A program made the translations under genes and the position numbers. From NCBI GenBank assembly GCA_017552615.1, contig JAFZPI010000008.1, positions 62,001 through 126,000 on the forward strand: DNA of 64,000 nt. The letters run 5' to 3'. Source of the DNA: Clostridia bacterium (GTDB taxonomy: Bacteria > Bacillota > Clostridia > Christensenellales > Aristaeellaceae). The notes under the pieces were generated by a model. It saw nothing but the letters and a program-made list of their open reading frames with translations, did not search any database and was not told where the DNA came from. Of the stretch, positions 19,055 to 25,674 are shown piece after piece (positions within the stretch are counted from its first letter, which is position 1; every line of letters begins with the position of its first letter).

Positions 19055-19096
19055 CGCTTTATACTTGAAACATGACGCGATTGTTACAAATAATAG

Positions 19097-19125
19097 TGGA
19101 CAATTGCGTCTTTTTCATGTACAAT
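19097..19125 (+). promoter_or_regulatory. Sigma-A promoter of the ZorAB-like operon
   Basis: TGGACA at 19097-19102 and TACAAT at 19120-19125 are separated by exactly 17 bp. A transcript starting near 19132 excludes the ATG at 19072 as initiator and supports the GTG at 19165. It makes the motor operon independent of the glycogen genes. Confidence 0.65.
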
Positions 19126-19164
19126 GTGAGCAATCCATGCTTAAAGCGAGGGAGGTCCTGTGCT

Positions 19165-20937
19165 GTGCGGGAGAGACGGAAACACACGCACCACCGGCGG
19201 ATGAGACGCGGGTGGGCTTTGATAGCGCTTATCTTTTTGATGGTTTTGCCGCTTTTCGCGCTGGCGGAGGCAACGATCAGCACGCCTTCGACGACCCGTT
19301 TCCCGGTCGCCGGGGAGACGGCCATGCCTGCCCCGGAAACTCTGGCGGAGACCGTCACGCCGACACCGTCGCCTGCAACAGACGCGGGCAGACCGGCGGA
19401 GTTTAAGGAGAAGTCCTTCTGGGAGAACATCGTGGACGCCCTGCCCTCGATCGCGAACTGGCTGGTTTATGCGGCCATCGCCGGGGTGACGCTGATCGGC
19501 GTGTTCAAGTGCCTGGTGCCCCTATATGCGACGACCCATGCCATGAAGCGGGCGATCCGCTCGCTCGAAGAACACGCGGGCGTCAGTGAGCGCCAGCCGA
19601 TCTGGCAGGAGAGCAGTTTCATGGGCAAGCGCCTTCGGGGCTCCTGGCTGCGTTTCCTGCAGAATGCCGAGCAGCTGGACCACCGCGGACTGCCCTGCAA
19701 CGTTGAAGACTATATCAATGACGACACGGTCACCCACGGCCCGGGCAATGCCCAGCTGGCCGAACTGATCCCGACCCTGCTGACATCCCTCGGTATCCTG
19801 GGCACTTTCATGGGCATGGTGCAGGGCCTATCCGGTCTGGACATCAGCAATTCCACCAACATGATGGAAGGCATCCGCCAGCTGCTGGAAGGCATGGGTT
19901 ACGCCTTCGGCACCTCTGTGGCAGGCGTCAGCTGTTCCCTGATCTTCAATATGCTGAACCGCATCGCGCAGGGCGCAAGCTACCGCGCGGTGGACGAGTT
20001 TACGGAATCCTTTACCCAGCTGGCCATGCAGCGTCCGCTGGACAACGACGTCCAGCTGATCTGCCAGAACCAGGACCGCAACAAGCTTCTGGGCGAGGTC
20101 ACCGAGAATGTCTCCGGGCGCATGGCATCCTCCATTGAGCTCGCGGTGGGCCGCGCGCTCTCACCGGTGGCGGTTTCGATGGACCGCTTCCTGATGAACG
20201 CCACGCAGTCCCAGATCGACGCGGTGGCCCGGATTTCCGATACCTTTGTGCAGCGGATGAACGCAGCGCTCAACGAGAGCTACCTGCAGCTGGGCCGTAC
20301 GCTGGCGGAAGTCAACCGCCAGGAGGAAATCTCGCTGCAGCGCCTGAGCATGACGCTCGACGCCGCGCAGAGCATCACCGAGGATGTGGGCCGTCTCCAC
20401 GGGGTTTCCGAAGAAGTGATCTCCGGCTTTGAGCGCTATATTGCCGAGCTCGCCTCGGCCCGCAGCCGGGACGAGCGCTTCGAGCAGAACGCTGTGAGCC
20501 TGCTCGGCAGCATGCAGGCCGCGGCCCAGGATCAGACCAACCTGATCGCGGCCCTCCGCCGTGAGCAGGGGAGCCTGCGCGAGGCTGTGACACAGTTTGG
20601 CCGGGACGCTGCCGAGAGCATGGAAGCGATCCGTGCCGCCGGAGCACAGGACAACGAAGAGCTCCGTGCGATCGGCGGAGATATGCGCCATGCAGGAGAG
20701 GCCATTTCCGAAAGCTGCAGTGCGTTTGCGCAGCAGGTGGAGGCGGTCTCCCGCAGCCTGACCGGCTTTGAGGAGAGCATTCAGGCGCTCTCCAAGCTCA
20801 TGGCAGACCAGGCCGCATCCCTGCCTGCGGACGGCACCAGCGGCGAGACGGCGGAGAAACTCAGCGCCATCCAAACGGCGCTGGCCGGAATTCAGCAGAG
20901 CCTTGAGAAGGCCTCGGCCGGGGACGGGGAGGACTGA
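19165..20937 (+). CDS. MotA/TolQ/ExbB-type channel with long tail, ZorA-like
   Basis: A 590-residue membrane protein. A basic N-terminus (residues 1-16) and hydrophobic stretch ending ALAEA (about 36) look like a signal peptide, followed by a Pro/Thr-rich linker. The channel part has three helices near 97-118, 200-222 and 246-267. The TolQ/ExbB signatures are LGILGTFMGM in the second and AFGTSVAGVSCSLIFNML in the third. After residue 270 about 320 residues of predicted cytoplasmic, helix-forming tail follow, which is the ZorA hallmark rather than TolQ or MotA. GGAGG lies 9 bases before the GTG at 19165. No ZorC, ZorD or ZorE is adjacent. Confidence 0.82.
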   Translation: MRERRKHTHHRRMRRGWALIALIFLMVLPLFALAEATISTPSTTRFPVAGETAMPAPETLAETVTPTPSPATDAGRPAEFKEKSFWENIVDALPSIANWLVYAAIAGVTLIGVFKCLVPLYATTHAMKRAIRSLEEHAGVSERQPIWQESSFMGKRLRGSWLRFLQNAEQLDHRGLPCNVEDYINDDTVTHGPGNAQLAELIPTLLTSLGILGTFMGMVQGLSGLDISNSTNMMEGIRQLLEGMGYAFGTSVAGVSCSLIFNMLNRIAQGASYRAVDEFTESFTQLAMQRPLDNDVQLICQNQDRNKLLGEVTENVSGRMASSIELAVGRALSPVAVSMDRFLMNATQSQIDAVARISDTFVQRMNAALNESYLQLGRTLAEVNRQEEISLQRLSMTLDAAQSITEDVGRLHGVSEEVISGFERYIAELASARSRDERFEQNAVSLLGSMQAAAQDQTNLIAALRREQGSLREAVTQFGRDAAESMEAIRAAGAQDNEELRAIGGDMRHAGEAISESCSAFAQQVEAVSRSLTGFEESIQALSKLMADQAASLPADGTSGETAEKLSAIQTALAGIQQSLEKASAGDGED

Positions 20938-20939
20938 CC

Positions 20940-22016
20940 ATGGCACGGCAGCATGTACACAACCGCAGAGCGGGCCGCGGAAGCGGCGGCTCGAGCTGGA
21001 TCAGCTACTCGGACATCATGGCCGCCCTGGTGATGGTGTTTGTGCTGTTCCTGGTGTATTCGCTGTACCATTATGGCGAGGCTATCCGCATCCAAACCAA
21101 CCAGCTGGAGGAGCAGCAGAAGACGCTGGCGGAGCAGCAGCAGATCGTGATCATCCAGCAGGGCAAGCTCGACAGCCAGAGTGCCGAGAACGACGCCCTC
21201 CGCCTGGCCCTCAACGACCGCGAGGAAGCCCTCAGTGCCCAAACGATCATCCTGATCGGCAAACAGGAAGAACTCGACGACGCCAAGGTTACCCTGGCCC
21301 AACGCGAGACCGACATCATCGCCCTCCAGCAGCAGCTTCTGCCCCTTCAGGAAGAACTCACAGCTTTACAACTGCAGCTGACAGCGCAGCAGGCGCAGCT
21401 GGATGAGAAAGAAGCCTTGATCAATGCGCAGGCCGCAGCGATGGCGAGACAGGCGGATGAGATCAACACGATGGTGGGCGTGCGTTCCGAGATCGTGAAA
21501 GAACTCTCCGGGGCTATGCGTTCAAGCAACCTGAACGTTTCGGTGGACGGGAGCGGCAACATTATCCTTGAGACCTCTGTTCTCTTTGAGACCAACAGGT
21601 CCAGCATTGCCGCCGAGGGCGAAGCCATGCTCCGGCAGTTCCTCCCGGTGTACCTCGACGTGCTGATGCAGCCACAGTATGCGAATTACCTTGGCGAGAT
21701 CATTATCGAGGGCCATACTGATTCCGACGGCACCTACGAACACAACATGGGCCTGAGTCTTGACCGCGCCGAAGCCGTTGCCAGCTACTGCCTGAGCATT
21801 GTCAACAGCCGGTATCGGAGCCAGTTGGAAAAACTGCTGACCGTCCAGGGACGATCCGAATCCGACCTGATCAAGGTCAACGGGGTGGAAGACAAGGAAG
21901 CTTCCCGCCGCGTGGTGTTCAAGTTCAGCATGCGGGATGAGGAGATGGTCAACCAGCTGAACCAGATTCTCCAGCAAACCTACGGTGACGGAGCATACCA
22001 GATCAACATTCAGTGA
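20940..22016 (+). CDS. MotB/OmpA-type stator partner, ZorB-like
   Basis: A 358-residue protein. A basic 19-residue tail precedes one membrane helix (about 20-44), which carries the ion-site aspartate D25 in WISYSDIMAAL, equivalent by position to the proton-carrying Asp of MotB and ZorB. Residues 46-180 form a Gln/Glu/Leu-rich coiled coil. The C-terminal OmpA-like peptidoglycan-binding domain (about 205-345) shows FETNRSSI, EGHTDSDGTY and LSLDRAEAVASYCL, including the Asp and Arg that bind diaminopimelate. It starts 2 bp after the ZorA-like stop with GGGGAGG upstream. Together they should make an ion-driven, wall-anchored motor. Confidence 0.88.
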   Translation: MARQHVHNRRAGRGSGGSSWISYSDIMAALVMVFVLFLVYSLYHYGEAIRIQTNQLEEQQKTLAEQQQIVIIQQGKLDSQSAENDALRLALNDREEALSAQTIILIGKQEELDDAKVTLAQRETDIIALQQQLLPLQEELTALQLQLTAQQAQLDEKEALINAQAAAMARQADEINTMVGVRSEIVKELSGAMRSSNLNVSVDGSGNIILETSVLFETNRSSIAAEGEAMLRQFLPVYLDVLMQPQYANYLGEIIIEGHTDSDGTYEHNMGLSLDRAEAVASYCLSIVNSRYRSQLEKLLTVQGRSESDLIKVNGVEDKEASRRVVFKFSMRDEEMVNQLNQILQQTYGDGAYQINIQ

Positions 22017-22052
22017 GCATTCCTAACATATAGCCGGAGTTGAATTCGATCC

Positions 22053-22511
22053 ATGAAGACGGTGACGATCATCCTTGGACTGCTGTTCGCGGCGTGTGTG
22101 ACGGTCGCGGCAGTGGTCCTGCTGACCAGCGGCGTGACGGTGACGATGACGGGAATCACCGCCCGTTCCGCGTCCGAAGATCCGGAGCTTTTTGCCCAAG
22201 TGCTTGCGGGCATGGGGGAGAACGCGGATCTCTCGCAGGAAGATATCACGGACTGTACTTTCTATACCTGGCATGTGGAGGTCAACAACAATACCTTTGT
22301 ACGCCTGGAAATGGTGGAGACTGCCATTGAGACCGTGGTCCAGGACATCAGCTTTATCGGCGAGCGGAAGGAGATCAACATCGACCCGCACAGCAAGGCC
22401 GAGCTGACCATCACAATTCTGACTCGAGCCGTGGACCACCCGAAACGGAATCTGACCGTCAGCTGGTACCTGTGGGGAAAGGCGGACCGCCGCGTGATCC
22501 CTGTGCAGTAA
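22053..22511 (+). CDS. Small membrane-anchored protein of the ZorAB-like operon
   Basis: A 152-residue protein with an N-terminal membrane helix (residues 4-27) and an outside domain of about 120 residues. The domain has an acidic helix (SEDPELFAQVLAGMGENADL) followed by a beta-rich part (residues 68-150) with alternating hydrophobic strands, reminiscent of an immunoglobulin-like fold. No known family is recognised. It starts 36 bp after the ZorB-like gene with a weak GGAG site and is closed by a terminator at 22526. So it is the third gene of the operon and might be an extracellular accessory subunit. Confidence 0.7.
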   Translation: MKTVTIILGLLFAACVTVAAVVLLTSGVTVTMTGITARSASEDPELFAQVLAGMGENADLSQEDITDCTFYTWHVEVNNNTFVRLEMVETAIETVVQDISFIGERKEINIDPHSKAELTITILTRAVDHPKRNLTVSWYLWGKADRRVIPVQ

Positions 22512-22525
22512 GTGAACAGAATGAG

Positions 22526-22548
22526 AGCGTCCTTCGCGGGGGCTTTTT
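22526..22548 (+). terminator. Terminator of the ZorAB-like operon
   Basis: AGCGTCC, a TTCG-containing loop and GGGGGCT form an imperfect stem followed by five T residues, 14 bp after the stop at 22511. It separates the motor operon from the flavoprotein operon. Confidence 0.55.
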
Positions 22549-22572: not shown

Positions 22573-22601
22573 TTGACGCGGCAGGAACCAAAGGGTACAA
22601 T
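22573..22601 (+). promoter_or_regulatory. Sigma-A promoter of the flavoprotein operon
   Basis: TTGACG at 22573-22578, 17-bp spacer, TACAAT at 22596-22601. The predicted transcript starts about 28 bases before the ATG at 22636, leaving room for its Shine-Dalgarno TGGAGG. Confidence 0.7.
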
Positions 22602-25320: not shown

Positions 25321-25674
25321 ATGGAAGAGCGCGTCATCACCTGTATCAATTGCCCGATGGGCTGCCGCATGACCGTGTGCCTCGAGAACGGGGAAGTCGT
25401 CTCGGTCAGCGGGAATACCTGCAAGCGTGGTGATACCTATGCCCGTCAGGAAGTCACCGCTCCGGTGCGCATGGTGACGGCGGTGGTCCCCGTACAGGGG
25501 AGCCTCATGCCTGTTTCCGTCAAGACCCGTGAACCCATTCCGAAAAAGGACATCCCCGCCTGCATGGCAGCCCTGCACGGCTTGCACCTTCAAGCTCCCA
25601 TCAAAGCAGGGGACACCGTTTTACCGGATGCCTGCGGCAGCGGCGTGGATGTCATTGCCACCAAATCCGTCTGA
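25321..25674 (+). CDS. DUF1667 protein
   Basis: A 117-residue protein of the DUF1667 family. The conserved cysteines are in CINCPMGCRM (residues 8-17) and GNTCKRGDTYA (near residue 38), a cluster able to bind an iron-sulfur centre or zinc. A late pair of cysteine residues (about 80 and 103) is also present. It starts 1 bp after the flavoprotein stop and is the third member of the conserved trio linked to glycerol-3-phosphate oxidation. Its exact part in the complex is not established, and electron transfer is the usual guess. Confidence 0.88.
   Translation: MEERVITCINCPMGCRMTVCLENGEVVSVSGNTCKRGDTYARQEVTAPVRMVTAVVPVQGSLMPVSVKTREPIPKKDIPACMAALHGLHLQAPIKAGDTVLPDACGSGVDVIATKSV

Follow-up and report, generated by a model that had tools for sequence, protein, structure and literature searches.

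A ZorAB-type motor pair with a small membrane protein partner in a family of Clostridia: kinship with Zorya and a candidate role at the cell wall

The ZorAB-gene 3 locus

The stretch of DNA analyzed here (64,000 nucleotides of contig JAFZPI010000008.1, henceforth the window) comes from the draft genome of a Clostridia bacterium of the family Aristaeellaceae (2.03 Mb, 72.8% complete); the relatives in this family are titled as drafts of uncultured Clostridia or Clostridiales, several of them of ruminant origin. The window contains a closely packed unit of three open reading frames (ORFs), all on the forward strand, that we denote zorA, zorB and gene 3 (Table 1). A preliminary description of this locus had recognized a channel protein, its partner and a small membrane protein, and all three ORFs are present. 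As argued below, ZorA and ZorB appear to be a branch of the ion-driven motor of the Zorya defense systems that is probably ancestral in this family of gut bacteria and probably performs routine cell-wall work rather than defense.

Table 1. Features of the ZorAB-gene 3 locus (positions in the window)
Feature	Position	Strand	Basis
zorA-like channel subunit, 590 amino acids (aa)	19165..20937	+	profile matches, conserved residues, predicted helices
zorB-like subunit, 358 aa	20940..22016	+	profile matches, conserved residues, predicted helix
gene 3, 152-aa protein with a single N-terminal membrane helix and a predicted external domain	22053..22511	+	new family
ZorB ion-site aspartate D25 codon	21012..21014	+	invariant in 22/22 rows
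ZorB OmpA-like domain (residues 215-322)	21582..21905	+	Pfam match, alignment
Ribosome-binding-site-like AGGGAGG preceding GTG at 19165	19149..19155	+	sequence
Promoter-like site TGGACA-17-TACAAT	19097..19125	+	consensus match only
Second promoter-like site	19065..19094	+	consensus match only
Terminator-like hairpin, then five T	22529..22543	+	not above chance expectation

The longest ORF of zorA opens at 19072; the protein listed in Table 1 starts from the GTG behind the AGGGAGG motif. It matches the Pfam family MotA_ExbB with 24.6 bits (cut-off 22.9), as the only protein to do so in this incomplete draft genome. The best match in PADLOC is ZorA1 (86.5 bits) and that in the PDB is 8vvn_C (1e-12), a chain named MotA/TolQ/ExbB protein; among the chains named ZorA, the best reaches 1.3e-9. 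Helices were predicted at residues 16-34 (secretion-signal-like), near 96-118 and, in the core, near 201-219 and 246-264, with the third core helix and the topology placed by eye. By this placement, ~325 residues extend beyond the last core helix and are predicted to be cytoplasmic, in good agreement with the TolQ/ExbB-type channel and the tail of some 320 residues described previously. The residues T214, T250 and S251 are invariant across 21 aligned ZorA proteins. The secretion-signal-like helix with which ZorA opens in the window (19165-19400) is also seen in locus L047 (6259-7998), and the remaining aligned proteins show no evident counterpart; in the window protein, a Pro/Thr-rich stretch (~60 residues) lies behind this helix.

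ZorB combines a single membrane helix (residues 21-39) that carries D25, a long linker and an OmpA-like, wall-binding domain that scores 43 bits against Pfam OmpA, and thus has both the ion-site aspartate and the domain previously attributed to it. Its best PADLOC match is ZorB1 (PDLC00609, 212.4 bits) and its best PDB match is 8qyd_F (3.3e-15), a chain named 'membrane protein' in an entry that includes a ZorA chain. Eight residues, D25, H259, T260, D261, L272, R276, R323 and R324, are invariant in all 22 aligned ZorB proteins. Wall-binding residues have been tested in Zorya (PMC11890865), and the invariant residues of the window ZorB other than D25 correspond to these by spacing. The ZorB ORFs of the family encompass 311-443 aa (apart from a 722-aa ORF in which zorA and zorB run together), compared to 244-274 aa in the loci L199-L202 and L217; as a guess, the greater length may have to do with how far away a thick wall lies.

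Kinship with the Zorya motor

The window thus has the adjacent ZorA and ZorB that Zorya requires, along with the Zorya-type ion-site aspartate and wall-binding residues, and the best profile and PADLOC matches of both proteins bear out the kinship with ZorA and ZorB suggested earlier, with no characterized non-defense motor family scoring on top. The curated NCBIfam cut-offs for Zorya are not reached by either protein (88.9 against 100 for ZorA and 78 against 400 for ZorB1). The PADLOC scan of the three window proteins yielded no match to ZorC, ZorD, ZorE, ZorF or ZorG, consistent with the previous observation that the unit lacks known Zorya effectors. The ZorC model PF15611, which scores the clostridial ZorC of locus L201 at 41.2 bits, was silent in all 150 family genomes searched, though equally so in 14 control genomes. 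A complete Zorya operon in close relatives, which would have spoken against the preliminary interpretation, was not seen in the family; the genome-wide search covered ZorC alone of the effectors, so that effectors encoded elsewhere are possible.

The unit most closely resembles Zorya type I, with which it shares the sequence of ZorA and ZorB, the tail, the ion-site aspartate, the OmpA-like domain and, as represented by L201 and L202, the same side of the ZorB tree. It differs from type I in the lack of ZorC and ZorD, the longer ZorB, the presence of gene 3 and the near-universal, mostly vertical occurrence in its family. With types II (ZorE) and III (ZorF, ZorG), only the ZorA-ZorB core is common, their effectors being unmatched in the three window proteins.

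For phylogenetic analysis, 20 of the 53 ZorB matches found in the class outside the family (see below) and three from the order were used as comparison loci; L196, L203, L216 and L218 among these were excluded from the trees for want of a ZorA match, and all trees were rooted at midpoints only. In the ZorB tree (36 rows), the 17 family rows, drawn from 76 family loci, form a clade (98/95), and this clade falls in a group of 23 rows (100/100) together with the true Zorya I and II loci, namely L201 and L202 (with ZorC and ZorD) and L217 (with ZorE), and with L199/L200 and L204. The remaining 13 rows, which represent a second standalone type, split off with support of 100/100. The ZorA tree reproduces a similar main split (94/87), but L204 appears on the other side and L199/L200, which like L204 form long branches, nest inside the family, so that a clean family clade is not recovered in this tree. 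On balance, as judged from sequence comparison, we regard the ZorAB of the family as a branch of the Zorya motor, and neither a MotAB nor a TolQR.

The second standalone type, a zorA-zorB-third-gene unit, was observed in five other clostridial families (L205-L211 and L213-L215). Like the window unit, it has ZorAB without adjoining ZorC, ZorD or ZorE, and its ZorB ORFs are of 316-412 aa; it differs in its separate ZorB clade and in its third gene, which encodes 300-370 aa, is of the tetratricopeptide repeat (TPR) type in three of the four cases scanned, and is not gene 3. Yet another arrangement is found in L199 (2744-10320) and L200 (5400-13134), where zorA, zorB and a third gene lie between aroE and pilB, pilT and pilC, without ZorD, that is, ZorAB inside a type IV pilus cluster (pilT, pilC and aroE were named by eye); the third gene product (391 and 402 aa, respectively) is weakly ZorC-like in L199 and has no PADLOC match. 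A literature search, confined to open-licence papers, found no described standalone ZorAB.

Comparison with other ion-driven motors leads in the same direction. The flagellar stator MotAB is likewise a channel pair in which the B subunit binds the wall; the window unit differs from it in possessing the ZorA tail, in its best profile matches to ZorA and ZorB, and in belonging to a family without FliG (FliG_C was found in 0 of 150 genomes and in 4 of the 14 control genomes). TolQR and ExbBD share the MotA_ExbB-family A subunit with it, whereas the B subunit of the window matches OmpA and ZorB, and Omp85 was not detected in any of the 100 family genomes searched (7 of the 14 control genomes were positive). 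Therefore, members of this family are unlikely to have flagella or a canonical outer membrane. To our knowledge, the non-flagellar 5:2 motors characterized so far (Tol, Ton, gliding) operate in bacteria that have two membranes. Where Ton systems occasionally turn up in monoderms, they have been considered likely non-functional (PMC12204202).

Distribution and inheritance

The distribution of the unit was assessed in samples of 150 genomes of the family (85 of them good; 50 genera), 200 of the order and 341 of the class. A search with the single ZorB sequence detected a match in 141 family genomes, including 82 of the 85 good ones, and in 47 of the 50 genera. In the order, a ZorB profile at 1e-20 retrieved 16 genomes, namely, 13 from the family and three others; two of the latter carry a different type of ZorAB, and the third lacks a ZorA match alongside. 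Gene 3 was detected in 14 order genomes, the same 13 family members plus one weak match of 53 residues inside a long ORF. Within the order sample, gene 3 and this type of ZorB are thus restricted to the family. At 1e-15, the ZorB profile matched 55 class genomes, two of them from the family. One partial match was obtained among plasmids and one among phages. The phage record, MT837639.1 (6.5 kb, unannotated), contains at 1856-2212 a ZorB-like OmpA stretch with 43.7% identity to query residues 211-328, and is possibly bacterial DNA.

Gene order was compared in 76 distinct loci (60 fetched regions, mostly one or two per genus, 18 others and the window, with three duplicates dropped). In all 76, zorB is preceded by a zorA match, which consists of two ORFs in L081, L096 and L118; therefore, this layout is not due to chance. 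Beyond the unit, no other conserved neighbor was found, with the proviso that seven of the 76 loci were lost in gene choice and that the neighbors were not each scanned with PADLOC.

To assess the mode of inheritance, 30 genomes were considered, 28 of which had an RpoB match; 24 were used, and one of these was dropped given that zorA and zorB had been called as a single ORF. The RpoB reading frames were picked with the help of a short RpoB motif. The trees of RpoB and of concatenated ZorA and ZorB for the resulting 23 genomes have 16 of 20 splits in common, compared to a maximum of three in 1000 label shuffles; ZorA alone shares 14 splits with RpoB, and ZorB alone shares 10. The distances also correlate with those of RpoB (0.80 for zorA and 0.69 for zorB), values that were not reached in any of 5000 permutations. 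Because both splits and distances agree with RpoB, the family ancestor probably possessed the ZorAB pair, which was then passed on mostly vertically. Between the window and its nearest relative, the ratio of nonsynonymous to synonymous substitution rates (dN/dS) is 0.21 for zorA, 0.21 for zorB and 0.39 for gene 3 at dS values of about 0.9-1.2, and gene 3 changes faster than zorB in all three pairs compared.

Gene 3 and the M15 peptidase connection

The product of gene 3 conforms to the small membrane protein with one predicted N-terminal helix that was described initially. It has no Pfam match, searches of NCBIfam and of PDB sequences returned nothing convincing, and no nuclease-like match was obtained; a PADLOC match to AbiEii (18.5 bits over 62 residues) was too weak to be considered. 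By these searches, gene 3 is a new family. A single-sequence search finds it in 79 of the 150 family genomes only; with a profile, gene 3 was detected in 133 of the 150 genomes, 80 of the 85 good ones and 46 of the 50 genera.

Gene 3 does not always adjoin zorB. In regions from 32 genomes where the match lies apart from zorB (three of these genomes have no ZorB match), it mostly stands alone, and no fixed partner emerged, there being no neighbor common to most of the 32 loci; an M15 gene is present in three. In 12 of them (L141-L143, L148-L150, L153, L154, L162 and L169-L171), the adjoining gene, on the opposite strand, is polA, as named by eye. Elsewhere, a different membrane protein of about 175-198 aa, here denoted g3b, follows zorB (L078-L081, L090, L091, L093, L097-L100, L104, L108, L115, L118 and L124). 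Weak SnoaL_4 matches were obtained for 10 of the 12 g3b members scanned (best 8e-4), and profile comparison, with a probability of 2.4%, rejects g3b as a relative of gene 3.

A possible clue to the function of gene 3 comes from D-Ala-D-Ala dipeptidases of the M15 family. In L076 and L120, which represent one genus, gene 3 is fused to such a domain (PF01427, 164 and 182 bits), and in L068, L121 and L083, gene 3 is followed by a gene for an M15 protein whose start, by eye, resembles a secretion signal. Altogether, 112 M15 matches were found in 95 of the 150 family genomes; 18 genomes (the two with fusions included) have a match no more than 1 kb away from gene 3, and one more has a match within 1 kb of zorB, across seven genera. 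By a rough estimate, well under one such case would be expected by chance.

Possible functions of the ZorAB-gene 3 unit

So what could be the function of this unit? With moderate confidence, we favor the possibility that ZorAB is a core, wall-anchored, ion-driven motor of a non-flagellated, monoderm family of Clostridia that has a constitutive role in the envelope together with gene 3. An old motor of the ZorAB branch would have become, or would always have been, a core component of the envelope in this family. From the homology with the solved ZorAB, we infer its assembly and action: five ZorA and two ZorB subunits would form the channel-motor, D25 of ZorB would carry the ion, the long linker and the OmpA-like domain would hold the peptidoglycan, and ZorA, along with its long cytoplasmic tail, would be turned or strained against the wall by the ion flow. 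Gene 3, with its one-helix anchor and a domain outside, would be a co-inherited partner that probably acts at the wall and, in some lineages, may work with a secreted or fused D-Ala-D-Ala peptidase. The OmpA domain, the connection to M15 and the fact that no outer membrane is apparent lead us to hypothesize a role at the wall; a role other than defense is suggested by the near-universal, mostly vertical inheritance and by a unit devoid of known effectors. Of the two alternatives raised in the preliminary description, a housekeeping wall-bound motor is the better fit, for the reasons just given, and a new Zorya-like system with the 152-residue protein as effector is less probable.

A bolder version of this proposal, which we put forward only tentatively, is that the unit is a new housekeeping machine, a 5:2 ion-driven motor that works mechanically or enzymatically on peptidoglycan in the absence of flagella and an outer membrane, by way of gene 3 recruiting or carrying a D-Ala-D-Ala peptidase; this machine and the Zorya motor would have a common origin, such that one was recruited from the other. 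If a ZorAB motor is indeed core and inherited mostly vertically in a family that shows no sign of an outer membrane, this would suggest that ion gradients can act on the wall directly, would bear on the provenance of Zorya, and would caution against counting ZorAB matches alone as defense systems.

Several observations weigh against a constitutive wall motor that comprises gene 3. The neighborhood survey, in which the zorA-zorB pair is kept throughout, finds gene 3 directly after zorB in only 46 of the 76 loci; this position is occupied by an unrelated small protein in 16, by neither in 13 and by the contig end in one. No gene 3 match was obtained in 17 of the 150 family genomes, and no ZorB match in nine. 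The M15 connection is likewise incomplete: 55 of the 150 family genomes, and the window's own genome (73% complete), lack an M15 match, 93 of the 112 matches are not found within 1 kb of gene 3 or zorB, and five of the 19 close cases, which fall in two genera, have M15 on the opposite strand. Finally, as described above, the ZorB of the family groups with true Zorya I and II.

The last point speaks for the main rival explanation, which we consider unlikely, if far from negligible, namely, that the unit is a new type of Zorya, a defense system that was fixed early in the family and has been kept vertically since. Under this scenario, ZorAB would sense wall damage caused by phages, and gene 3 or an unlinked protein would replace ZorC, ZorD or ZorE, perhaps depolarizing the cell or attacking its own wall. 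The best PADLOC match of ZorB, to ZorB1, the retention of the tail and the wall-binding residues that Zorya defense needs, and the faster evolution of gene 3 compared to zorB in three pairs are all compatible with this possibility. However, near-universal presence and mostly vertical inheritance are unusual for defense genes, and this is the pattern seen for ZorB (141 of 150 genomes), with only the two partial matches in plasmids and phages; besides, gene 3, rather than resembling a nuclease, adjoins a wall peptidase in seven genera.

Less probable still is that ZorAB is a sensor and not a motor, such that it gauges the tension of or damage to the wall, the tail signals to enzymes and gene 3 serves as a regulator. 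The long ZorA tail and the ZorB wall-binding domain would suit such a device, and sensing of wall damage by ZorAB has been proposed (PMC11890865). Against this idea, all ion-path residues are kept, which suggests that ion flow matters, and there is no conserved linked signaling partner. The least credible explanation, an orphan Zorya remnant in which a motor pair without selected function was left behind by its effectors, would account for the lack of ZorC, ZorD and ZorE in the unit and for the silence of PF15611 across the family (given the caveat of the silent controls and the score of the L201 ZorC), but is strongly disfavored by conservation: dN/dS near 0.2, invariant ion-path and wall-binding residues, and ZorB kept in nearly all good genomes.

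Transcription signals and flanking genes

The promoter proposed upstream of zorA is one of five promoter-like sites found, compared to a mean of 0.7 in shuffled sequences. The proposed terminator fares worse: the hairpin is there, but the three terminator-like sites found are not beyond the 2.8 expected from shuffles. The flanks of the unit are metabolic, as had been described (glgP and a flavoprotein trio); glgP and the middle flavoprotein are named by eye only, and profile matches identify the DAO/BFD flavoprotein at 22573 and the DUF1667 protein at 25321.

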